From Phoenix dactylifera (Eukaryota; Streptophyta; Magnoliopsida; Arecales; Arecaceae): a stretch of DNA of 64,000 nucleotides. The notes beneath the pieces were generated by a model. The model had not been told where the DNA came from, made no database searches, and worked only from the letters and a program-made list of their open reading frames with translations. Made by a program: the position numbers and the translations under genes. The stretch lies in contig NC_052394.1 of the NCBI RefSeq assembly GCF_009389715.1, positions 22,260,899 to 22,324,898 of the forward strand, written 5' to 3'. Within the stretch, counting starts at the first letter, position 1. Each line of letters starts with the position of its first letter. Of this stretch, positions 3,808-28,600 are shown one piece after another.

Positions 3808-4312
3808 ATGGCCGTCTCCATCACCTTCGCTCCCTCGCACCCTTCTCTCCGCTCCGACTCCCTCCATCTCTCCACTCCCACAAACCCGTCCTCGTTCTCC
3901 GAAACCCTAGCTCTCGATCGCCGGCGGCTTCCATGAGCGTCGAAGCCCCAAAAAAGTCCCCCGATGCCTCTTTCTTGGATAGGAAGGACTCCGGCCTTTT
4001 CCATTTCGTCAAATACCAGGGTCTCGGCAACGATTTCATCATGGTTCGTGATGCGATCTCTCATTGTCCACCTCCGATTCTTGATTTCTTGGGCATGGAC
4101 TTCTTCTTGATCCGGTTCTTGTGGAGCTTATCTTATTAATATAGGTGGATAATAGGGATTCCTTGGAGCCTAGGGTTACTCCCCAACAGGCCGTGAAGCT
4201 CTGCAATCGGAATTTTGGGATTGGTGCTGATGGTGTAATCTTTGCATTGCCCGGGGTCAATGGCACCGATTACTCCATGAGGATCTTTAACTCGGATGAC
4301 AGCGAGCCCGAG

Positions 4313-6014: not shown

Positions 6015-6192
6015 TGCATTATGAATGTTGAATTGGAATGATTTTAGAAGCCTTTTTGAAGTATTAATTCTTGAGTAAGCCTTTTGAATTATGACTATAC
6101 AATGTCTTATTCTAGTCCTATACAGGCTTTGGAGGTGGATGACTTAAAGCTGGGAGATATTGGTCCAAAATTTGAGCACCATGAGATGTTCC
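6015..6192 (+). repeat. upstream copy of a 178-bp duplication flanking the LTR element
   Basis: This segment carries the 3' end of a dapF-like intron, the acceptor TCCTATACAG and the exon up to GAGATGTTCC, where the LTR begins. It matches 10321-10497 with only two differences that I can see: one substitution near its start and one T of homopolymer length. It has the splice acceptor but no donor, because the exon is interrupted by the LTR. Confidence 0.9.
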
Positions 6193-7750
6193 TGTTGGGG
6201 GAAAAAATGGACCACCCCACAAATACAATTAAAGCACCCAAATCTGACAGTGAGCCAAGCTCATAGGCCGAGCCGAGCTCAGAAGGCCGCCGAGCACAGA
6301 AGCTGCCGAGCTCATCCAGGCCGCCGAGCACAGAAGGCTGCCGAGCTTATCCAGGCTATCGAGCTCAGAAGACAGGCCAGAAGGCCGAGCACAGAAGCTG
6401 CCGAGCTCATCCAGGCCGCCGAGCACAGAAGCTGCCGAGCTCATCCAGGCCGCCGAGCACAGAAGGCTGCCGAGCTCATCCAGGCCGTCGAGCTCAGAAG
6501 GCTAAGGCCAGAAGGCCGAGCACAGAAGCTGCCGAGCCCATCCAGGCCGAGCTCATCCTGGCCGCCGAGCACAGAAGGAGCTCATCCAGGCCGCCGAGCT
6601 CAGAAGGCTAAGGCCAGAAGGCCGAGCACAGAAGCTGTCGAGCCCATCCAGGCCGAGCTCATAGGCCGAGCCGAGCTCAGAAGGCTGCCGAGCTCATAGG
6701 CCGAGCCGAGTTCAGAAGGCCGAGCACAGCAGGCCGAGACCAGAAGGCTGCCGAGCTCAGAAGGCTGCCGAGCACAGAAGGCTGCCGAGCTCAGAAGGCC
6801 GAGCACAGCAGGCCGAGCTCAGAAGGCTGCCGAGCTCATAGAAGGCCGAGCACAGCAGGCCGAGCACAGAAGGCCGAGCTCAGAAGGCTGCCGAGCTCAG
6901 AAGGCAGCCAAGCACAGAAGGCTAAGGCCAGAAGGCCGAGCACAGAAGCCGCCGAGCTCATCCAGGCCGCCGAGCTCAGAAGGCTAAGGCCAGAAGGCCG
7001 AGCACAGAAGGCTGCCGAGCCGAGCTCAGAAGGCTGTCGAGCTCATCCAGGCTGCCGAGCTCATCCAGGCTGCCGAGCTCAGAAGACTAAGGCCAGAAGG
7101 CCGAGCACAGAAGCTGCCGAGCTCATCCAGGCCGCCGAGCACAGAAGGCTGCCGAGCACAGAAGGCTAATCATAGAAGGCCGAGCTGACCTCAAAAGGCC
7201 GACCTCGTCTATATGCTGCGGCTATGCCCTGCAGCAGCCTCACTGCACCATGCTTTACTTGCCGGCCACGCCACGATATTTTGATCAGGAACCATACCCT
7301 GCTACGACTGTCAACGCCCCACTATTCCCAAGAATGTACTGCACTGCGCGCCACAAGCAAGCTCTGGCTACGCGCCATCTCCTCCCATGATGGGAACGGG
7401 CCATCCACGGCAACTCATTACTTCACATGCCCACGTCCAATCGTAACGGTAACCCATTAATTCGCCCAGTCACATCACAGGTAACCCTGCCACTCTTCCT
7501 ATAAAAAGGGAGGCTTCTTCCTTCCAAAAGGGGGTTTTTCGGACTTCTACATACAGTCCCTCTCATTCTCCAAAATTAAGCCCCCCTCTGACTTAAGCAT
7601 CGGAGGGCCGACGCCGAAAAAGCCCGGCCACCGGCTTCTTGCAGGTCTCCAGGAGGACGCCGCCCGCCGACAAGTCGCCACTCGCCACTCAGGCAACGGA
7701 GCTCCTCCCTTTCGGCCGACGGTCGCCCCCGGATCCAATTTCCAGCAACA
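6193..7750 (+). repeat. 5' LTR
   Basis: The LTR starts TGTTGG and ends CAACA. Its first part (about 6245-7190) is an array of variants of GCCGAGCTCATCCAGG and GCCGAGCACAGAAGGC units. A TATAAAAAG box is at 7500-7508, followed by a non-repetitive tail. Confidence 0.9.
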
Positions 7751-8364
7751 GTTGGCGCTAGAGGAAGGGCCCGAGTTGCGGCCATGAAACTAAGGAGCGG
7801 AGGAGTCTTTAACGCCTCTCAGCATCATGCTCCAAGTCCCAAACGCTCAGTCCAGAATTCACCACCAAGATCTCCGGTAGATCAAGTTCCACAAGTCCAA
7901 CTCGAGCACTTCGATGCGTTAGTGCAGCAAGTCCAAACGCTAGCCACTGCAGCCCAAGACCGAGCTCATGCAGGCTGCTGAGCTCAGAAGGCTGCCGAGC
8001 TCATCCAGAAGGCCAAGCTTAGCAGGCCGCCGAGCTCAGAAGCCCGAGCGCAGAACACCTCCTAGAAAATCGAGCCAAAGAAGGCCGATGCTGAACCAAG
8101 TCCTGAGGGACTTCGAAGCTCGAGAGCCATCAAAATATCTCCAAAAGGTACAGGACGCCACTTTGGCTTCAAATAATTTTAATATTTTATCTATTTTCAG
8201 GTCGGAGAATCCAAAAAACGACCTACGGGTATCTCTATCTCCAACGTCGCTCCGCTCCGAATAAGGGCGCACGATCGCCAACGAATGAAGTCCATCTCCC
8301 ATATGTCTCCAAGATCGGGTTCCCGACTAAGCTCGGATCCTCCAGTTAAAGGATTAACGTCATG

Positions 8365-8480
8365 CTCCATCGACTAATCGAGCTCGGCTCGATCTCCATC
8401 GACTAATCGAGCTCGGCTCGATCTCCATCGACTAATCGAGCTCGGCTCGATCTCCATCGACTAATCGAGCTCGGCTCGAT
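8365..8480 (+). repeat. four exact 29-bp tandem repeats inside the LTR element
   Basis: Four head-to-tail copies of a 29-bp unit that begins CTCCATCGACTAATCGAGCT and ends CGGCTCGAT. The unit contains the palindrome GAGCTC and the inverted pair ATCGAGC/GCTCGAT. It lies in the internal region, a few hundred bases before the 3' LTR. Confidence 0.95.
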
Positions 8481-8670
8481 CGCCAACAGACAAGGCCAAA
8501 GAAGGCCGCTGAGTCGACCTGAAGCACTTAAACTCCAACTGCATAAGAGGTACACTCTATTTAGCACGCACATCTCCATAGATATTTGGCTATATTATAG
8601 GATGATCGACGACTGGACTACTTCCTTCGCCCGAGCCAAAAAGCAGCTCGAACTCGGAAGTCGGGGGTAG

Positions 8671-10320
8671 TGTTGGGGGAAAAAATGGACCACCCCACAA
8701 ATACAATTAAAGCACCCAAATCCGACAGTGAGCCGAGCTCATAGGCCGAGCCGAGCTCAGAAGGCCGCCGAGCATAGAAGCTGCCGAGCTCATCCAGGCC
8801 GCCGAGCACAGAAGGCTGCCGAGCTTAGAAGACAGGCCAGAAGGCCGAGCACAGAAGCTGCCGAGCTCATCCAGGCCGCCGAGCACAGAAGCTGCCGAGC
8901 TCATCCAGGCCGCCGAGCACAGAAGGCTGCCGAGCTCATCCAGGCCGCCGAGCTCAGAAGGCTAAGGCCAGAAGGCCGAGCACAGAAGCTGCCGAGCCCA
9001 TCTAGGCCGAGCTCATCCAGGCCGAGCTCATCCTGGCCGCCGAGCACAGAAGGCTGCCGAGCTCATCCAGGCCGCCGAGCTCAGAAGGCTAAGGCCAGAA
9101 GGCCGAGCACAGAAGCCGTCGAGCCCATCCAGGCCGAGCTCATAGGCCGAGCCGAGCTCAGAAGGCTGCCGAGCTCATAGGCCGAGCCGAGTTCAGAAGG
9201 TCTAGCACAGAAGGCCGAGACCAGAAGGCTACCGAGCTCAGAAGGCTGCCGAGCACAGAAGGCCGAGCACAGCAGGCCGAGCACAGAAGGCCGAGCACAG
9301 CAGGCCGAGCTCAGAAGGCTGCCGAGCTCATAGGCCGAGCCGAGTTCAGAAGGCCGAGCACAGCAGGCTGAGCACAGAAGGCCGAGACCAGAAGGCCGAG
9401 CTCAGAAGGCTGCCGAGCTCAGAAGGCAGCCGAGCACAGAAGGCTAAGGCCAGAAGGCCGAGCACAGAAGCTGCCGAGCTCATCCAGGCCGCCGAGCACA
9501 GAAGGCTGCCGAGCTCATCCAGGCCGCTGAGCTCAGAAAGCTAAGGCCAGAAGGCCGAGCACAGAAGCTGTCGAGTCCATCCAGGCCGAGCTCAGAAGGC
9601 TGCCGAGCCGAGCTCAGAAGGCTGCCGAGCTCATCCAGGCTGCCGAGCTCAGAAGACTAAGGCCAGAAGGCCGAGCACAGAAGCTGCCGAGCTCATCCAG
9701 GCCGCCGAGCACAGAAGGCTGCCGAGCACAGAAGGCTAATCATAGAAGGCCGAGCTGACCTCAAAAGGCCGACCTCGTCTATATGCTGCGGCCATGCCCT
9801 GTAGCAGCCTCACTACACCATGCTTTACTTGTCGGCCACGCCACGACATTTTGATCAGGAACCATACCCTGCTACGACTGTCAACGCCCCACCATTCCCA
9901 AGAATGTACTGCACTGCGCGCTACAAGCAAGCTCTGGCTACGCGCCATCTCCTTCCATGATGGGAACGGGCCATCCACGGCAACTCATTACTTCCACACG
10001 CCCACGTCCAATCGTGACGGTAACCTATTAATTCGCCCAGTCACATCACAGGTAACCCTACCACTCTTCCTATAAAAAGAGAGGCTTCTTCCTCCCAAAA
10101 GGGAATTTTTCGGACTTCTACATACAGTCCCTCTCCTTCTCCAAAATTAAGCCTCCCTCTGACTTAAGCATCGGAGGGCCAGCGCCGGAAAAGCCCGACC
10201 ACCGGCTTCTTGCAGGTCCCCCGGAGGACGCCGCTCGCCGACGGATTGCCGTCCGCCAGTGTTCGCCGGAGCTCCTCCTCCTCGGTTCGCGGCCGCCCCC
10301 GGGTCCAATTTCCAGCAACA
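8671..10320 (+). repeat. 3' LTR
   Basis: Same start and end as the 5' LTR but about 92 bp longer, mainly through a different number of GCCGAGCTC-type units (array about 8723-9760). A TATAAAAAG box is at 10071-10079. Confidence 0.9.
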
Positions 10321-10497
10321 TACATTATGAATGTTGAATTGGAATGATTTTAGAAGCCTTTTGAAGTATTAATTCTTGAGTAAGCCTTTTGAATTATGAC
10401 TATACAATGTCTTATTCTAGTCCTATACAGGCTTTGGAGGTGGATGACTTAAAGCTGGGAGATATTGGTCCAAAATTTGAGCACCATGAGATGTTCC
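10321..10497 (+). repeat. downstream copy of the 178-bp duplication
   Basis: This repeats 6015-6192 directly after the 3' LTR, then continues into the rest of the exon (CCTCTCGTATTGATACAA) and a GT donor at 10516. This copy therefore holds the complete exon (10431-10515) with both splice sites. Confidence 0.9.
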
Positions 10498-10721
10498 CCT
10501 CTCGTATTGATACAAGTTGCTAAAATATTTTCTTCGATATTCATATTCTTTTTCTACATTGGACATTACTATGACTATTGAAGTCCTGTAAATAGTTTTG
10601 GATGTGTTCTTAGTGTGAAATCATAAGCTACTTGTTTTGTTTCTTGGAGCAGTCTTGGTTTAACTTTTTCCTTAAAAAAAAAATTCTTCGCACATAGTTC
10701 ATAATGAAATTAGAAAAGTTG

Positions 10722-10950: not shown

Positions 10951-13754
10951 ATCATAATATGCGGTGTCTGATATTGCATTTAATTTTATTTCCATTTTAA
11001 TGCTTCAATGCTTTTGCATATCCTTTATTTTCTATAATGAGATTCTTTATGTGAGCAATGTTAACTGATCAGTGTAAGTAGGCATATTATAGTTCTCCGT
11101 CACATGCTTGACTGCATGCCTATCTGCAGCTGTTGTGGTTTGCTTTCATCCATAAAGGCTATGGTGGTGCTGTTCACCTTTGCACACACTAAAGAGCAGT
11201 AGCATATAGAATCCCTTTTTTGGTTTCCTTGATTGAATTCTTTGATCATCTATTTTGCAGAATTTGTGCAAGTCTTCTCTCGTTCACACCTAAAAATGCG
11301 TGTATGGGAACATGGTGCAGGTATTTCTCAGAGCTATTGTTTTCTATGTTCACGTGTCTCTGTGTGTGTGAGGGTGATTATGGTCTTTTATTTGGTTATA
11401 CTTCCTGAAGAGCAGAAATATTGTAAACCTTCTTGCATCTTGTCAGTTATGTTATTCAGCATAGGATTGCCTCCCTTTTCGGTTTCTAATATAATAGAAA
11501 CAGTATTTCATCCCAGCTCAGTTGTATGCCGTATTCTTTTGTATGTGGTTGAGTCAGGTAAATGGAGTTGCTTACAAATCATGCTTCTTAGTATCCTGAT
11601 TGTGGTCACAGTCTTAAAATCTGCATTACTCCCTTTTGTCATCATGTGATTGTGTTATGAACCAATTGGATGGTTAAATTATTTTTGAATGGCAGGAGCA
11701 ACTCTAGCCTGTGGGACCGGAGCTTGTGCAGTTGTTGTCGCGGCAGTTCTAGAGGGCCACACTGAAAGGGTATGTTCATATTACTCTGTGATCTTTACGT
11801 TGTTGCATTCATCTTATTCTATCTCGCATGTGCTTTTCCCATTCTCATTTATAACTCTATACTTTTGGTGAATGTTCTTTTGAACCAGACATGCATTGTT
11901 GATTTGCCTGGTGGGCCACTGGAGATTGAGTGGAGGGAGGAAGACAACCATGTTTACATAGGCCCTGCAGACACAGTGTTTTATGGATCTGTCCCCCTTT
12001 AGCTCAGCAATTTGGATTAGTTTCTAAGACCTTTGCTTCAAGAAGAGATGATAATGAGTCCAATTGAAAGGTATCTGAAGTATTATCTGCAACATGCATA
12101 TTAATGTCTCTAAACTGTCAGAAATTTTGTTACTTGTAATTTGCATGATGGCATGTTCTGTCTGGAGCTATAATCAGTTTGTCATAGCTAGTTTATGGAA
12201 TTCAAGGTCTGCACCTTCTCGCAGCTGATGTTGCTGTCTGATATGCTATTGCCGACATGAGAACATGGAGACATCAATTAATCCCTTGAAATTTGATATG
12301 CTATTTTCTGTAAATGATATGGCTGACTATGCATAGAAAAAGTAACCATACATGTTTGATTGCATGAAAATACTTTGATAGTTTAGATTGTCAGAGTTCC
12401 TTTTTGTTTTCTTTGAGTAAAACAGAGTTTGTAAAAGTCTAATAAAGTTATAACCCTTGATGTGGTTAAAAATTTAGCATATATAACAATTATTCTATTT
12501 ATTTGATCATTTTGTTATCTATTGGATTATCCCAGATCCTTCATTAGAAAACTTTTTTTTGCAACCAGCACTTATAGTTCTACTTCTTCAACTTATGCAA
12601 GTTGTCATCATGACTTGGAGTCAAATATTTCCTCTCCATTAGCTTGAGGACCACAATTAAAAATGCAATACTTTTGATTCCTTGGACAAAAGCCAGGTCA
12701 CAACTTGATTTAATCCTAGAATACATAGATACTGGGAGTCAGTAGATATTGGGGTTAATCAAATTTCTGTTGATTACTTCAACTTCATAATGACTAAAAT
12801 GCGAGCAATACCAAGATGCTAGGCATTTCTTATGTGAGCTGGTGCCAACTAATTTAATCATTAAATGCTAAAAGTTGTGTGACCTGGTTCATTTGATCGA
12901 ACACTGTCATATGATAAATATTTAAGGATTGAAGAGCAACGAGAAGAGGGATGGAGAATGGATAGGTGTGAGGAGAAAGAAGCAACAAACTTCTACTGTG
13001 TCTCCTAAGAAAGCCTATAATCAACCAATGTGACTCTCATTCCTCATCTTCTTGGGGCCAAGCTTCTGATTAGAATCTGTTGAGGATTCTTTGCAATATA
13101 CAAGAAAAAATGATTCATTAGAAATATTTTGCTTACATACAATACAAGAGAAGGTTTCAGAAAAATAAAAAAGAAAGCACCTCCAGCCCCCTTCTTCTTC
13201 CTTTCCAATCTTTTTGAACTTATTTCTTTAGATTTGACTTTCGATGTTTATTACTCTTGTGCTGGTGCATCTTTACAAGATTATTGAGTTGAACTCAAGT
13301 CACGGAGAATTCTCAAAGAGGCTCCCTCAATATAAACTAGTATGCTGGAAAGTGTAAATGTGCCTAATGTAGGATTTTCTGTAGCACCAACTTGGTAAAT
13401 CCAAGATAGTTTTGGCGGAAGAAATATGAAGTTGTAATTGGGCACATAGCTTCACAATATATAATGCGAAGCAACCTTTGTCACAATTCTATATACTACT
13501 ATGTTACGTTTTCTTTTTTCTTTTTTTCAGAAGAATTTATATATACTATCTTTGTCGGTAGTCTTTTTGAAACCTATTTTTCCTTCTCGATAGACCTTTG
13601 CATGGTTTAGCCAGGCCTAGCCTTAATTTTGAGAGTTAATTCATAAGCCCGAACCCAGCTTGACTGGCGCTCGAGCCTATAGGCTTCAACTTGAGCCCGG
13701 CCCAAGACCGACCTATCTCGACCCAACATACCGAGGGCACTATTCACACCATTA

Positions 13755-14160
13755 TTGAAAGGTGAGGAGGAAATGGTGAGGGTGAGGGGAGGGACGAGGA
13801 TCAAAGCAGAGGGGAGATGGTGACTGTGGAGAGGGCAAGATTGCGAGAGAGGAGGGAGAGTTCCAAGACGAGGAGGAAGAGGAGGCGGGGTATAGGAGGA
13901 GGAGGTGGCGGGCGTTGGCCTACTTGAACAGTGTCACGGTAGCCAAGTTGAGGGTAGGGGATCTGGATGTAGGGTTAATGGAGAACGAGAGGAAAGAAGT
14001 TTCAAAAAAAAGAGAGAATGGGACTCTGGGGAGGGGGCGAGAGAGAGAGAGAGAGGAGGGGGCAGATGGAGGTTGTCTAGTGGGGGTGGGGTGGAGAAGA
14101 TGGGGGCGGTACGAGAAGGGAGGGACATATTCTAGGGTCTCTCCCATCTCCTCTCCTTTC
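13755..14160 (+). repeat. purine-rich (G/A) tract
   Basis: About 400 bp in which the plus strand is very rich in GAGG, GGGAG and GAGA words, ending in a CT-rich run. Open frames on both strands are low-complexity by-products. It may be part of an old repeat. Confidence 0.6.
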
Positions 14161-14232
14161 TTTCCTTTCTTTTTCTTTTTTTTTTTAAATTTTTGATTCT
14201 TTAGAAGATATGTGATATTATTTTAAATATAA

Positions 14233-14234
<2 letters not shown>

Positions 14235-14287
<53 letters not shown>
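14235..14287. repeat. (TA)n microsatellite
   Basis: An uninterrupted TA run of about 53 bp just after the purine-rich tract. Confidence 0.97.
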
Positions 14288-14290
<3 letters not shown>

Positions 14291-15529
14291 ATTGCAATTC
14301 AAGGATGCATAAGTTCTCGCTCACAATCCATATAACAAGCTACACCAAGTAAGGAGTGTAGAACAATTACCTTATGAGGTATAACCACTTATCGACAGAT
14401 GTCGCTTTCCAGGGGAAATGCAAAAATTTAGTTGTATAGGTTGGGCTGATTTTGTTAGCACTTGATAAGATACAAAAGACTCTCTTAACATTTTCTAGTA
14501 TGTTTTGGTTGTTAGTAGATTCTCAAGTCAGGTCAAGGCAAACAACACACTAAAGGTTTTTAGGACTTTTGGGTTCATTACCATCCTCAGTGGCAAATCT
14601 TCCTTCAACAAGATTGTTTTTATTTTTTTTTTTAGTGTTTTAGAAAAGTGACTGTAATATGCAAGGTATTGCATAATACATATCTAGTATGCAGGCTACA
14701 TATATAACCGCATATAATTAAGGTTGGTATTTTTAACTATATAAATTTTTTAAAATATATGAACTAAAATAAAAAAATAATAATAATGATAGTAATTTTA
14801 GATAGATAATATCAATATTTGTGCTTATTATTTAATTGGTGCTTATTACTTAATATATAATATTACTAGCAATAATTATAACATAATTAAAACTCACATC
14901 TAAATTAAGCATCAGTTTGAACCTGCTCTATCTGCATATATCCACATAAGAGGGGCAATTTATCCATATGTTTGCCCCCCTAATCAATAGTAGCAATTTA
15001 TGAATTGACTGCAACCAACTCGAGTTAAACATGTTTAGCTTTGGCATAAATGGGTTCGGACCATAAGCATGTCTATTCGGTGTGACTCATTTATTAAATG
15101 TTCGGGTTTAGGCTTAAGAGTCTTAACCTATTTGACTCATTTGTTAGTTGGATGAAGTTGACATGGTTATGATTTGATTCATTTATGACTGTTTGTAAAC
15201 CTAATTCAAGCTGTTTATTGGACAGGTTATATGAGTCGAGCTAGGTTACCTGTTTAATAAATAATTGAATTTGATTTTAAAATTTTAACATGTTTAATAA
15301 GCCGGCTGAGATCTGGTTGATAAGAGTTTTGATGCAACTTGGATTCTGCATGCCCATAGCCGAACCGGTTAGACCTTTAACACCCCTACCCATGATGGAA
15401 GTGGGCCACATATAAGATGGCAAAATGCTAATTGGACGCCTGTTTAGTCCATATGCGGTACGGTTGCATATAATAAGTGCATATAGGCAAGGCAGTGCAA
15501 GAGACCACATCCATATATACAACTAGGAA

Positions 15530-16015
15530 TGTCAAATGAGCAACTTTTTCATGATCTAGCTCATGTTCGGCTCCTTTGGATAGTAAATGAACTGAGCTAG
15601 ATCTAGGCTTAGCTCATTTGAACTTGCTTCAATTTGGCCCCAAATATAAATTTATATAATATATATATAACATTTTGGCTAGCTTAATTTAATAATATAT
15701 ACACACACACACACACACACACTTTTTTTTGCATATTTACTATAAACTAACATAGGTTGTACAAAAGATGTATTTCAATTATAATATTAAAATTTAATTA
15801 AGATTATAGAGATTAAATTACATAGACTAAACAAAAAATTATGTAAATAAAGATCTTGAAATATCTTTAACCCTCATTGATTTTTTAAAGCAAGCTGTTT
15901 GCAAGTAGCTTGTGTTGGGCTTGAAACTAAATAAGTTGGTTTAAGCTTGGCTCGATCATAAAATGAGTTGAGCTTGAGCTAGGCTAGCTCATTCTATGTT
16001 CAGCTTGTTTGATCC
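15530..16015. repeat. GAGCTTGAGCT-type degenerate dispersed repeat
   Basis: This begins near GGAATGTCAAATGAGC and ends near TTGATCCCC. It is filled with AGCTCATTT/GAGCTTGAGCTAGG words, with an inverted flavour (AATGAGC near the start, GCTCATT near the end). It resembles dispersed non-autonomous repeats seen in many plant genomes. Exact ends are not clear. Confidence 0.35.
15701..15722. repeat. (AC)n microsatellite
   Basis: Eleven AC units, preceded by a TA-rich stretch. Confidence 0.95.
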
Positions 16016-17246
16016 CCTATATAACTACCTCATGCATCACATTTTAAAACACTACTTTTTTTAATATATATTCCATAATCATGGTTTGAAGATGGAAGAA
16101 GAGGGGGAACAAACTAGAATGAAAGTTGTTTAATGAATATATATAATGATGACATGCGCTATGATACAATTAATAGATTGATTGTTTTGACATCACAAAG
16201 AGATGGGAATAGCAAAAGCAATGCATAGAATTAGCATCTATAATAAAGTCATAATGAGAAGGCTTTTATCAAGGGTCATATTTGGGAAAGAAGAAAAAAT
16301 TGTATGAGAGAGCTTCAAGTCTCTCTCTCCCCCCCCCTCCCCCCTCCCAGCTTCCCCCCTCAAATATATAGGTTTTCTTATCAGTATCAATCTTTTAAAT
16401 AACTCAACCAATTTAGCCGTATTTGGTCAAACCAGTTACAGGGGCATTCTACTTTAATGTTTATTTTGTTTCTTAGAACTTGCTTGGATAGTATCATTGC
16501 TTGCCACTTATTCAGGGGGAACGATCTGATTCCAGATCTTAAGCAAGAAGATGTTATGTCATCTCTTTTTATTATATGGAGGATTTGAGTATTTTTGTTT
16601 GTTGATCCAAAGAAAAGGCAAGAGTGCAAAGAAAAATAGATTTGGAAATTAAGAATGTGACACCATTGAGTTAACGTTTATCAGGGTAGTAATTTGTTAC
16701 ATTTTCAGGGTGATGAGGAACTCAGGTACTGAGGGGTTTTGGGGCATTGCGAGTGACACTCTCTGAATCAGTAAATCTGCTTCGAGGTAAGGGAAATGAC
16801 AGATAAAGTTTTGAGGGATGGTATTTAGTGCAGAGAAGTGACATCCTATAGTAGTACTCAAAATAGTCTGTGGGATGAAAAAATAGAGATGGGGTTGAGT
16901 TTGTTCCATGTGGAGAAATCTTCATATTTAAAGGACTGGTATAATGTCTTGGTTTAAATCTTACTATTCTATATAAGACTCGGGAGGGGGAGTCTCCGTT
17001 TTGAGTAGATGCTGTAATTGGTTTATTACTTGTTCAAGTGAGAGACCTGTCATGCTTAATATGCACAGGCACGAAGGAGTCATCGTTACCATCTTCACCT
17101 TGCAGTTGGTTGACACATCTAGATGATTATTAGGATTAGTGTTCATAAGAAGGAGAAAAAAAAGAATCACAGGGTCCACATAGTCGCTGGCCATTGTGTG
17201 ATTCGTTCTCGCCAGCTCGTCCCTGAATTGGAGAGGATCCTAATCT

Positions 17247-17683
17247 TGTGAGGACCGATATAGGCATGTATTTAGTCCCACATCGGTTATTCACCGAGAA
17301 AATCTTGAGTACTTATAATTACGGAATTTCCAAAAATATCTTATGGCTAGCCATTTTGGGTGAGGTCCTGATTTGTGATAAATGGTATCAGAACGAACTC
17401 AGCCTATAGCCTATGTGGATTAGGGGACACTACAACACGAATTCATGAAGGCTGACCATGGGTCGATCGTGGTACTTGTGATTAGATTTGAATGAATTTG
17501 AACCCTTAGCCTGACGAGAATGTCAGGACTTGAACGGAGAAAGTTTGTGAGGACTGGTGCGGACGTGTGTTTAGTCCCATATCGATTATTCACCGAAGAC
17601 ACTTTGGGTACCTATACAAGACTAAAGAATCCAAAAAAATACCTTCCAGTTAGCCTTTTTGAGTAAGATCCTCGGTTGTAACA
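17247..17683 (+). mobile_element. TRIM (miniature LTR retrotransposon)
   Basis: Two direct repeats flank a short internal part: about 17247-17382 and 17546-17683, each starting TGTGAGGAC and containing TTTAGTCCCA and TTCACCGA. Directly after the first repeat is TGGTATCAGA, the standard primer site matching the 3' end of initiator Met tRNA. At 437 bp with no coding capacity this is a classic TRIM. It is old and degraded but structurally recognisable; target duplications are not evident. Confidence 0.85.
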
Positions 17684-17780
17684 AACCCAACTTTTATTTT
17701 TTTTATTTTAATATGGTGAAGTATAAGGTGGTATGCACAATTGGGTGCGCATATGCTTACAAGATGTGCACACATCATGT

Positions 17781-17812
<32 letters not shown>

Positions 17813-20800
17813 GTATCTCCGGGCACACGCATGGCATATACAATGAAAGTATGAATGCGTGGGACCTGCATGAATTTTCTGTCACCCACTTGTTCCCATA
17901 TAATAACAAGGGCAATCTGGCGTTGATGCCATTAAGATGAGTGGATCCACTTTTTCCCACTTCATTATATCTATTTGCAAAAAAAAAAGGAGGAAAGAAA
18001 GGAGGGAATCTAGAATCCTCTATTTGATGGGCATAAATTTGGATTTTCTTTATAAGGTTGCAGTATATTCACCATTTCTCATCAGTTATGGAGGATTTGA
18101 CAGTAGTCTATATGTGCTCCTTTTTGATTGAACAAAGCAGTAGTCTTCTGACATTTACTCCATTGCTTATCAAATGTTTTCATACCTAAGAGCCAACCGG
18201 AGGGAACAAAAGTAAAAGCTGCAGTTCAAATAAAATATTCTGGTTAAAATTCAAAGTATTGCCTGTTCAACCAAAATTCTGCATTCAGTATACCGTGCCT
18301 GACACCTGATTCTAATGGGCTATTTGGATTTGCCCATCATCGTGTCCAGAAGTGGCCCAATATATTTGGAGGCCTAAGGCTGTTTTATCTTTGAGACCTT
18401 CCTTGCAGTAGGCTGGTCTAAGGTAAACTCACAGGAGGGTTTTTTTTCTTCCATTTTGCCTTAAAGGCTTTTCTGTAGTGGGTCTTCTTTGGGCCGGAGC
18501 CTTAGGCGACCGCCTCAATCGCTTAAAGGTTGGGCCGGCCCTGATCGTATCCTCAAGTTCAAATTCACACAGCCAAAGCTTTCCAAACATCTCAGGCATG
18601 TGATTGACTTGTTGGCAGACACTATACTCGGCGCCAAAAATTGTGGTCATGTCAGAACAGCAATCTTTACTCCTCTTTTCGTGCAAATTGTTGTCCTTAG
18701 GATTATGTTGCACGATGTAATTGTCTAATTCATGTTTCGAATGCCAACTTTCGAGCACTCTATTCTATTTCTCTCATTGCTCTCCACTTTGTAGGCCCTG
18801 CTCTGTAATTGCGGGCTGCAGGATGGTCTCCTCCTTTTTATGGAAAAGAACTCAGATTGAGCGGGCACCAGGACCACCTCGTTCACTTACCTGTTATAGC
18901 ATTTATTAGTATCATCTAAAGGGCAATGACAGGATGACTACTACATTCAGCTGCATTTTCTGAGGATTTTGGTCGGTATGTTTATTGCATCTGTTAGGGA
19001 TAAATTCGAAAGACAGGCTTATCAGGTTGTTTAGCAAGATTCTGCAGCCATATGACCTGGAATGAAGGAGCTCGGTTGCACAGGAAGTATAGATACTGAT
19101 CGATTGTTTAACGTGAGAAATGCCACCAGGAAACCCAACTGCAGTCGCTATCAGGCTTCTCAGCAAACAGGTTCTTCAAGGGGTTGATTAATTCCAGATA
19201 GGGCTTGGGGCCATGGTTAAATGGAAGAAAAGAAAATCTTAAAACTATTCAGTAAGTTAGATACCGTAACTAATGTTCTTGAACATTATCTTTCTCCTTT
19301 ATTGGTTTGCTTACCATGTAATAAATTACATCAACTGTTGGAATACATTAAGGAACCAAGTCCTTCATGTGGCTATTAAATGGAGAGACAGTTGTGGTTT
19401 AAGTTCGAATTAGTGTTCTGGTTAGACGGATTAGATCAGTAGATGGCAGATGCAGAGAGTTTCATCTAATGCAGCATGTGAATCCTACGCACGGATCTTC
19501 TGTTTGGGCATCATGAGTGTATGAATATGGAAGTTATTGGTACAATGTCCAATAGAAGGCATGTCTTCTGTACATAAATACACAGGAAGTTGCATGAATT
19601 AGGGTTGTCATTGGAGATCGCCTAGAAGCAAAGAGCTTTGAAAAAGAACAAAATTTCATCGTTTTAATTTGCTTGTTTATGAGTTATCTCTGATAGTTAC
19701 TATTAACCCCTTGCGAAATCAAATACCCTACTCTGCAAGTGCAGTCTTAGTAGCGATTATGCGTATAGTTTGTCAGCCTGAGTTACAACTGTTAATACCT
19801 AAAGTCTTTTAGATAAACTGCTACGGAAGAACCTAGTGAAATCTACTAACACTTAAAGCTGCATTAGATAACTTAGCAAGTCAAAGATGGAAAATGACCA
19901 TATATTCTGCAGGATCCACGTAAAATAAATTTCCTGCTTTATTAACTCCTTGTGATGGAGAATTGTTTTGCAGCTTGCTCATCTGTGTGGCCACCTTCAT
20001 CCGTCATTATCAAATTGCAGATATCCCATTATTTTGATGCATGATGTTTTATTTGTTTCTTGTCGTGCTTGTTTCCAACTCTCTTTAGCATGTTTCTTCT
20101 TGCCCCATTAACGCTTAAAAGCCGGAGCCATCATTCGCCGAGAAAGAGTCACTATAAAATAATATGGGCTGATGGGATACGAGTAGCTGAGCACTAACCA
20201 AATTATTTTAGTTAGGAGATAAGAAGGGTATCAGGTGCGAGATCATTCGCAAAAAGCCTTTAGAGCGTGGCACCTCCTTATCATCTTCCTTTTATCTGCC
20301 CTATCTTAGCAGCCACTAATTTCTCATTTCAGACTTGCAAGACGCGCAACTACCGGCCAAACTAATCTCCCAATCTAATCCTTCTCTATCGAATAAGGCT
20401 GGAAACATTTCCTGTCACTAGCTAGAAAAGTTGAAGAAAAAGAGGTCACCCACTACTTGTGCCGACCCTCGCCTCCTCCCCACTCCCAATGCTGGATGAT
20501 TGGGAGGAAAAGAGAATGGAGCGAGGTGAGGGTCCATACATGCAAGCGACCTACGTCTGGAGGATTAACAGCCACATTAGTCGAGGTGAGAAGTCTTTAA
20601 ATCATTCTTTGCAGCCATGGAGAACCTTGTTTCATCTTTACAGTGAACGTTTTATTTTTAAGCAGTGTGTGTCGTTTCATTGCAGCTTGTCTCTCTATCA
20701 TGGATTGATTAATTAGACGGAATAGTTTTTGTAAACCAGCCCCTTTTTTTTCTTTTTCTTTTTTTTTTATGTGTGTGTATCTCTCTCTCTCTCTCCCATC

Positions 20801-24884: not shown

Positions 24885-25653
24885 TCTTATTCTTAGACAA
24901 TCACTATAGCAGAGTCGTCCTCAACTAAGAAGATACATTTCTCCACCTTGAAGCCATTCTATTGCATTAGTTTTGCCGTTAGTGACAGACTACCACTTTG
25001 GTGTAGTTCAGCGAATAGAGGGGTTAGTGTAGTAGGATCACGGTTTGGTAAGACTTTGGCGGTGATCTGGTCAGTAGTTTGCGGGGTTTATTACTTCGCA
25101 TTCCTTTTTTCTTTTTCAAAAGTTCACCGTAAGTTACAAGCAGTTCCTACCTAGGGATTAATCCTTGTCTCATTTTTGCTGAATGATATCCCCAACCAAA
25201 TACATGAAGGGCTCAAATAACACTAGGTTACCTGAGTACAAATCTCTTCCTTTAAGAAAATAATACATGATTGCTCAAATCTCATTTTTGGGCAATCACC
25301 GTAGCAGAGTCGCTTTCAACTAAAAAGATACATTTCTCCACCTTAAAGCCATACTATTGCATTAGGTTTGCTGTTAGTGAGACTACCACTTCGGAGCAGT
25401 TCAGCGAATAGAGAGGTTAGTGTAGTAGTATCATGGTTTTGGTAGGACTTTGGCGGTGATGTGATTTGTAGTTTGCGAGGTTTATTACTTCACATTCCTT
25501 TTTTTCTTTTTTAAAAGTCCACCGTAAGTTACAAGCAGTTCCTACCTAGGGATTAATCCTTGTCTCATTTTTGCTGAATGATATGCCCAACCAAATACAT
25601 CAAGGGTTCAAATAACACTAGGTTACCTGAGTACAAATCTCTTTCTTTAAGAA
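24885..25653. repeat. tandem duplication, two ~370-bp copies
   Basis: 24885-25258 and 25281-25653 are direct copies about 395 bp apart, roughly 90% alike by eye. Shared words include GATACATTTCTCCACCTT, GACTTTGGCGGTGAT and GGGATTAATCCTTGTCTCAT. Neither copy codes for anything I recognise. Confidence 0.9.
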
Positions 25654-28600
25654 CAAAATATATATATGAATTTTCATCCAGATACATTGTTTTCAGTACT
25701 TTTTATCTTTTTTTCTTTTTTTAACCTTTATAGGTCAGCAGCACTGTCATCAATGGCATTAGGTTAAAATAAAATCAACTTGGTTTCTTTCCCCAACCAT
25801 GTGGATAGATAGTTCTCCTACCCAATTGGTCTGATTAATTATAATGCAGCTATCATTTTGCCACAACATGATTATGCTTGCCGTCAAATACTAGATTAAT
25901 ATGAGAAGGTGGTTAAGGAGCACCATTTTACATGCAAGTGGCACAATTTAAACCAAAAAAAGGCTTGGCACCTTCCAAACAAGTCTTCACTGAAGCTTCT
26001 CGGAGGACATGGTAGTGCTTGACCCAGGAGGAAGCTACCCATTAGAGGAAAAAGATGCAACGTCTATTCATGGCAGAATATGTTACTGAATTGAAAAAGA
26101 AGTCTGGTCTTAGATGACCAGTCTCTCCTTGGACTGTTCCTTTCACCTTTGAGGCTGTGAAAAGCAAATGACTTTATACATCCACGATCAGTATGGGGAC
26201 ACACAAGAAATATGTTCTCGCAGTGCTTTGTTGGTCTAATACCATCATGCATGTAGACATTCACCACTCATGATTCTATCTTATGTTATATTAATTACTA
26301 AAATAGGTAAATATTGTCGCCCACCATGCACCGATGGAACATCATGCTTCTATGTAAGATCTCCCATACCTAATTCTGAACATAAATATATTTTGGAGAT
26401 GATATCACTCTATGTCACCAAAGTTGATCTAGCGACGTTATATAGCCAGAATAGGTCTTAGTGTTGAAGCAATAAGACTATGTGGTTCTCTTTGGGCCAC
26501 GCTACTTGGCTACTCTTCATCTCATTGTTCATATGATCTCAAGAAGCAAATAGTATGTCGTTGTGTGTGTGTGGACACTAAATCATATAGTAGATAGTTG
26601 TGGGAGATGATGTCTTCGTGATGTTGATGCATTCGCCGGCATCCTACGGTATCAAACAGGCCTCCTGCTAAAGGATGTCAGCCTTGGTTGCCTTCTTGAC
26701 CTGTATCGATCTCACTTGGATCATGAAGGGGAGGGGGGGAAGGCTAAGCCATCATGAGGTGGAGGTCACCAATTTGTGGCTTGTCCACTTGCACCTTTTC
26801 ATGCTGTTGTTCCCTTTTAGCCTTCTGGCTCCTCACTATTATTGTTGTATCGCATTAGCTGCTGTTATTTCTTTCTGTTCGTTTGGATGCCATGGGGAAC
26901 CCTTAGTTTTTTGTCATCAATGGGTTGGGGGAAAACATGAAGCATGGGGGATGTGGCAGGTTGCATTATGTGTACCTTGGTCGGTGGATGGATAGTTTTT
27001 GTGATGTCAAAGGCCATCAATTGCTTGTTTGATTCATGAGAGTAGCTGCAAATGGTTGTGCAGGACAAAGAAGAGTAAGGCCAATGGGTCAACTGGAAGG
27101 CAGTGATTTATTTATTGTTAAGTAGCTAGGAATTCACTGATTTGAATCCATCATATTGCAGTGTCTGGTTTTGGCCTTTGGAAGAGCTTTGCTTCAACCT
27201 ATTTGTTCTCATATATTTGGACCGTTTCACTATATCTGGATGCGTCCCTCCCTAAGCTAACGAGGGACACAAGTGTTGACCTGATGGAAAGGGTGGTAGG
27301 CCCAGTTGCCGTATAAAAAGGGGGCATCTGTGAAGCACATCTGACTTGGTTGCAACTCTTTTTCTTCCCTTAAAGATTCGTTATGAGATGCAATTTGGAG
27401 CTGACTGACCGACCCTAGAACCAAATTCTTTTGGTCTACAGGAAAATTATGTTTTCAAGAGAGGCATGATCAAAATGACTGCAGTATTCAACTATGTATC
27501 CAGGAGGATCACAGTAACAAATAGTTCCTCCATTATAACCTGAAGACTATTTTTAATTGTCCGTAATAAATAGTTCCTCCATTAAAAATAGTTCCTCCAT
27601 TATAAATAATTTAGCAATCCAGCATATTATCATTCAGAAAGATATGAACGAGCATAGTCCTTTCGAATGTCTATCAGTTTCCTTTGCTTGGTACACGATA
27701 TGAGAATGGTTAGAGCCTATGTTGTATCATTGTTGTTTTCGTTTCTATAGAAATTAGTAAAATACCATATAGAAATTGATGTTGAAGATAGCATTTGCGC
27801 AAAACTTTTGCTACTCGTAGCTTTTATTTTCACTCTTTTTCGAAATCCATTAACCTTTGTACCAAAAGTTAATTACAAAGATTTTACAAATAATTTTAGA
27901 AAACAAAATGGCTCTATGATCCACGTACGTCGTTCAATCTGGTTCATTTTTCGTCTTGAATTTTTGAAACCAGAAAAAACGAACAAAAGCAATAAAAAAA
28001 ACGGGCCCCTACTTTTTGTGCTCTCACAATATTTCTTTGCTTATGAAATGATGAGAACAAGATTAGCCTCGTAATGAATTGATTGTGGGCACAAGGCTCC
28101 TAAACCATTCGAGTACGCCATCACAAGAAACTTGGCCTTGTTGCAGTTCAATGGGATATCTCATGCGGCCCAGATTCGGACCACAATTTATTGTTAGTAG
28201 TTGGTGGCTGAGCTTTGGGCTTTTGTCCTGGCCAGCTACTCGACTGTTGAGTGGGAGCACAGTGAAGTGTCATGCGGGCCACAGAGTACACGACTCAAAC
28301 AAGAAAGTTCTGAAAGGCTGGAGAGCGTGATCAGGTTTCAGTGGAGAGTGGAGAAGAAAGATGGACACCCTAATCGTTGAATGGCTTTCAGATCAAGAAT
28401 CCAAACATGGCAGTCATAATTTGCTAAGACTATATCTCTTATTGTACGATACAGCTGTGGAATCTGATACTGAATCAAGAAAGCATCAGTAGCAATATAT
28501 ATGATAGGAAGTGGAAAAGTTTAAAAGCTGTTTTTGAGTAAAATTCTACTGCTCTGAGCACATGAGATTTATTTATCAAAAAGAAAGATTGCTGACTGCG

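Follow-up and report, generated by a model that had tools for sequence, protein, structure and literature searches.

The question raised by this locus is how an LTR retrotransposon in Phoenix dactylifera came to lie between two copies of a stretch of its host gene some 178 bp long, rather than between the 4-6 bp target duplications expected of canonical integrase activity. The first-pass annotation of the window (the whole stretch of DNA analyzed here, 64,000 nucleotides of contig NC_052394.1) had remarked on this departure from a short target duplication, which sibling elements with 5-bp duplications confirm, and had placed the two copies at 6015-6192 and 10321-10497, at the LTR borders. Alignment recovers the same coordinates; the description of the copies as exact repeats does not hold, as 176 of the 177 aligned bases match, with one substitution (6016 G / 10322 A) and a 1-bp indel in a T run. 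Because 176 of 177 aligned bases are identical, a chance origin of the duplication is excluded. The copies form a direct duplication bracketing a non-autonomous element of 4,128 bp (6193-10320), with the following parts:

6015..6192, + strand: left copy of the duplication (178 bp), with an intron end, its acceptor, and 67 bp from the start of the DapF exon (85 bp); base 6016 is G, the paralog base
6193..7750, + strand: 5' LTR, TGTTGGGGG...CAGCAACA, with a U3 rich in repeats
7751..8670, + strand: internal region of 920 bp, with a gag-like start only (by eye against the relative L049) and a purine-rich end before 8671
7753..7769, + strand: primer-binding-site-like stretch, TGGCGCTAGAGGAAGGG, preceded by the 2-nt spacer GT
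8671..10320, + strand: 3' LTR, with an ordinary (B type) end
10321..10497, + strand: right copy of the duplication (177 bp), with one derived substitution at 10322

At both borders, complete LTR ends abut the host sequence directly, without filler. No 5-bp duplication is present at these borders, where the last five bases on the left are GTTCC and the first five on the right TACAT; 177-178 bp are duplicated instead of 4-6 bp, and this long duplication of host DNA stands beside at least one normal LTR end, as in aberrant integration. The right junction is ambiguous by 2 bp, CA being common to the LTR end and the sequence before 6015, while the left junction has no comparable overlap. There are no Ns near the locus, and querying the 773-Mb assembly (2,391 contigs) with the duplicated stretch returned only its two copies and a paralog on contig C12.

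The two direct LTRs with TG...CA ends identify the element as an LTR retrotransposon. The stretch following the 5' LTR, a putative primer-binding site common to sibling elements, and the purine tract preceding the 3' LTR are of a suitable kind and position. The element lacks coding capacity for pol, with an interior of just 920 bp, and is akin to a gag-bearing relative, L049 (Pfam Retrotrans_gag, E=3.6e-13). The one interior frame that was scanned, window 7592-7981, had no Pfam match at E<=0.1; a Pfam TRH match of an LTR reading frame fell below its cut-off and was taken for a composition artefact. The gag start in L049 (L049:3-1004, minus strand; G000:C153) is similar to the beginning of the interior in the window element, and L049 is possibly an autonomous partner. 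Four identical 29-bp tandem units occupy 8365-8480 in the interior; several siblings have overlapping matches there, and the number of units seems variable. The family is multi-copy, with 2,733-2,941 first-look candidates per search, of which 40 were scored each time.

The paralog on C12 (L047) provides the order of the locus before insertion. It aligns with the joined flanks at 78% identity (398 of 513 columns, with 29 gap columns, 24 of them in a single gap in the intron part) and carries the stretch once, uninterrupted at both junction points; we accordingly regard a single copy as the ancestral arrangement. Where the left copy has G at 6016 the paralog reads G as well, so that it is the right copy that carries the derived base (10322 A), two positions from the LTR. 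Window and paralog also differ between two other shared blocks, where ~6.4 kb in the window (12156-18608) face ~0.5 kb on C12 (L047:7501-8024), a contrast in length that appears to be another insertion or deletion difference. Elsewhere in the window, a 356-aa open frame at 48260-49330 matches DDE_Tnp_4 (E=1.3e-31) and may be a transposase-like or domesticated transposase gene, and direct repeats with 395-bp spacing lie at 24885-25663, their second copies 86% and 95% identical.

By sequence similarity, the host gene is that for chloroplastic diaminopimelate epimerase, a gene of lysine synthesis. The duplicated exon and the next exon, hand-joined as a peptide, match the chloroplastic diaminopimelate epimerase 3ejx (E=3.1e-21); Pfam DAP_epimerase also matches C3 at window 4139-4312, ~1.9 kb upstream of the duplicated stretch, and C12 upstream of the paralog. 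The two exon copies are:

6126..6192, + strand: truncated exon copy, 67 of 85 bp, whose frame enters the LTR
10431..10515, + strand: complete diaminopimelate epimerase exon, 85 bp, with a GT donor at 10516-10517

The earlier reading of the duplicated content as an intron end, an acceptor, and most of an exon is thus sound, as is the claim that the downstream copy keeps the complete exon with its donor. The acceptors are identical in the two copies (AG at 6124-6125 and 10429-10430), and the donor after the right exon reads CAA/GTTGCT as compared with CAG/GTTATT in the paralog. A complete exon stands downstream of the element because the duplicated stretch spans the splice acceptor together with most of the exon; the element may behave as plain intron sequence. 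With identical acceptors, however, either may be used; as judged from the reading frame, splicing to the left one would carry translation on into the LTR, to a stop at 6264-6266.

Sibling elements establish what is usual for this family. Among 17 siblings, a small sample picked by similarity, 12 have an exact 5-bp target-site duplication (TSD), four match at four of five bases, and one is unreadable; no long flanking duplication was observed in the 16 that could be read. Eleven of these come from pairs found with the 3' LTR end, retained from 14 stretches after removal of the paralog (L047), a rearranged copy (L045), and a stretch in which only one LTR end matched (L046); all 11 have an exact 5-bp TSD. 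A border check of six further siblings gave one exact 5-bp TSD and four matches at four of five bases, the right border of C16:629600 not being found. For the first eleven, 600 bp of flank were inspected per side, except for 306 bp on one side of L044; for the other five readable siblings, 400 bp were inspected on the left and 300-306 bp on the right. Two of the siblings, L035 (C6:5.06 Mb, minus strand) and L036 (C6:6.08 Mb, plus strand), look like copies of one insertion, as they share the TSD ATTTT and their flanks; with their opposite orientation and separation of ~1 Mb, the pair looks like an inverted duplication or an assembly duplicate. The siblings on C524 and C615 also look like one insertion.

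Whether the two LTRs descend from one cDNA bears directly on the number of insertions at the locus. In a FastTree phylogeny over 7160-7645 with 25 distinct rows, the two window LTRs are sisters, with local support of 0.943; rows were drawn from copies matching nearly all of 9730-10320, of which 39 were found and 16 removed as identical repeats, the 25 including both window LTRs. The U3 arrays of the two LTRs align with a score of 1614, as compared with 525 for the next best among the 22 other LTRs compared. However, the mismatches between the LTRs are unevenly distributed, with 17 in 100 positions over the last ~105 bp and 41 in 1433 in the body (Fisher p=4e-8), and the excess corresponds to a tract of another subfamily:

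7648..7745, + strand: foreign tract at the 5' LTR end, of the A type subfamily, as at C153 and C13:4571818; limits set by eye, ~7545 to ~7780

While the 3' LTR end is 93-97% identical to siblings over the full query (40 candidates scored), the 5' LTR end resembles the C153 pair (93-94% over 7560-7750, 40 candidates scored; 91-92% over 7648-7735) and C13:4571818 (85 of 88 positions match), whose LTR bodies are just 62-65% identical to the body of the window element. The interior just past the 5' LTR is again of the ordinary type, 88.7-97.3% identical to ten siblings and 71% to L049. For the mixed end (7430-7750), other full-length matches reach 90% at best (40 of 2,941 candidates scored). As percent identity by itself does not reveal the type of an end, twelve further LTR ends, 10 of them from the list of 2,941 candidates or near, were aligned in addition to an earlier end alignment that showed 15 of the tree copies. 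Two of the twelve combine an A body with an A end. The other 10 have a more or less B-like body (83-94%), and their ends are of a third kind, at similar distances from A and B (75-83%; L062-L069, L072, L073). In none of the 12 does an A end follow a B-like body, and the window's combination of body and end did not recur among the other LTR ends that were aligned. Bodies and ends have thus been reshuffled in this family, which seems to exchange LTR ends repeatedly. Conversion between different elements is reported to occur in plants, though more rarely than conversion within an element (PMC7251063). We read the tract at 7648-7745 as a local conversion event in an element that was inserted once. 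A single cDNA is favored because, apart from ~100 bp at the end of the 5' LTR, neither LTR has a closer relative than the other in the set compared; the mosaic nature of that end leaves some doubt.

The age of the duplication relative to the insertion can be gauged from the same LTRs. The two copies differ by one substitution in 177 positions. Counting all LTR mismatches (41/1433) predicts 5.1 differences in the duplication, for which the probability of finding 0-1 is 0.038; leaving out CG/CHG transitions (20/1433, the denominator including such sites) predicts 2.5, with P=0.29. Duplication and insertion may be of the same age, or the duplication is possibly younger, through a later event or conversion between the copies.

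Taken with the borders and the paralog, these comparisons make it probable that the locus records the uncoordinated integration of one non-autonomous LTR-retrotransposon cDNA, which produced the 178-bp target duplication. One LTR end would have been joined by integrase at 6192/6193, and the other attached 178 bp upstream, at the position matching 6015, through integrase or through end joining by the host; the intervening 178 bp would then have been filled in, or copied from a sister or homologue, yielding a 178-bp rather than a 5-bp target duplication. We infer a single event, with the abnormal join presumably at the second of these ends. Of the origins proposed in the first-pass annotation, the data are best fitted by a widely staggered break or by repair of a break through copying. 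The divergence of 1/177 between the copies, compatible with that of the LTRs once CG/CHG transitions are set aside, counts in favor of uncoordinated integration. Counting against it, the foreign 5' LTR end is a sign of recombination that one clean insertion does not predict, and the count of all mismatches makes the duplication look younger than the LTRs. The completeness of both ends also weighs against it, the abnormally joined end in HIV often being truncated. The element may have had a hybrid parent that we have not seen, since ends of a third kind occur on B-like bodies (10/12) and ends have been reshuffled in the family. The 2-bp CA at the right junction is a faint hint of end joining; retention of cDNA end nucleotides there was ruled out, the GT spacer being absent. 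A nucleosome-spacing origin of the ~178 bp was dropped, as published lengths (13 to 450 bp in HERV-K, 273 bp in XMRV) have no common size.

The discovery that the two LTR ends belong to different subfamilies led us to weigh whether two insertions of the same family, on different alleles, occurred at 6015 (TSD TGCAT) and at 6192 (TSD GTTCC), with a subsequent crossover leaving a mosaic element flanked by 178 bp. Such a history would account for the differing pentamers at the borders, the uneven divergence of the LTRs, and a 5' LTR end from another subfamily in a family where other combinations of body and end exist. It also requires two hits 178 bp apart, and against it stand the sisterhood of the LTRs outside the tract and their common U3 array, which has no like in the 22 other LTRs compared; moreover, the mixed end finds only a 90% full-length match among the 40 scored of 2,941 candidates, and a B-like body with an A end occurs in 0 of the 12 further ends. 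With the LTR bodies sisters and the hybrid parent unseen, we lowered our estimate of this history and regard it as unlikely.

A similar footprint would be left if the cDNA had been captured where the target was already broken, whether with long 5' overhangs or through two opposite nicks, and host repair had filled in the gaps with no role for integrase at the target. Vaughn and Bennetzen, in 2014, are said to have ascribed tandem duplications at rice insertions to patch-mediated break repair, and the CA at the right junction would suit such a process. However, an unprocessed cDNA end would be expected to carry a GT spacer, and both ends of the palm element are in TG...CA form without one; we consider break capture quite improbable. 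Least credible, at a very low probability, is an assembly artefact through a mis-resolved repeat or through the join of two alleles that the first-pass annotation had entertained. The T-run indel could be a read error, but the locus contains no Ns, the copies are told apart by the substitution at 10322, and an artefactual join would need to coincide to the base with the end of an LTR. A join of alleles is unlikely because an ordinary insertion allele would not contain the junction from an intact LTR end to base 6015, and because the genome search found only the two copies and the C12 paralog.

The locus shows how an element may insert into an exon and yet leave a complete one in place, and from this a testable prediction follows as to which exonic insertions persist. 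Wide-stagger integration could conceivably serve LTR elements as an exon-sparing route, in which, provided that the duplicated stretch spans a splice acceptor, an exonic hit becomes a longer intron and the gene survives, though we hold this generalization to be doubtful; were it true, long-duplication insertions should be enriched among LTR elements lying against exons. Annotation that requires a TSD of 4-6 bp would score the palm element as lacking one, and long-duplication insertions in plants may be under-counted.

For ordinary plant LTR retrotransposons, a published survey restricted to elements with TSDs of 4-6 bp gives 5 bp in 87.2%, 4 bp in 11.6%, and 6 bp in 1.2% (PMC6911290); owing to that restriction, longer TSDs would have gone uncounted there. 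The palm insertion involves the same kind of element and, in principle, the same flank structure, with a TSD of 178 bp instead. A limited look at the literature met no plant LTR element with a TSD of 100+ bp, and we do not claim that there is none. Closer parallels come from retroviruses. In XMRV, where the norm is 4 bp, one of 15 integration sites (provirus C-3) is reported with a 273-bp duplication ascribed to uncoordinated joining (PMC2857682). C-3 resembles the palm locus in its long direct target duplication at the LTR borders; it differs in that a retrovirus integrated in cell culture and one of its LTR ends lost 5 bp, whereas the palm element has both ends complete and lies in a plant genome assembly. 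For HERV-K (HML-2), TSDs of 111 and 250 bp, with empty sites confirmed by PCR and sequencing, are described, and of 451 putative TSDs, those of eight listed loci are longer than 10 bp; the authors also weigh later rearrangement as an alternative (PMC5488345). These too are germline LTR elements with near-identical flanking duplications in the same size range, though they comprise a human solo LTR and a truncated provirus, while the palm element is a non-autonomous plant element with two LTRs within an exon. When HIV integrates under integrase inhibitors or with mutant integrase, host duplications of hundreds or thousands of bp are reported at the end that the host places (PMC5041404). The likeness lies in one end placed by integrase and the other by the host, with duplications often of hundreds of bp or longer; unlike the palm element, whose ends are both complete, these events were induced in culture and the abnormal end is often truncated. 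By comparison with these systems, the palm case is unusual and fits a kind of event known from retroviruses, with the added feature that the copied stretch leaves a whole exon.
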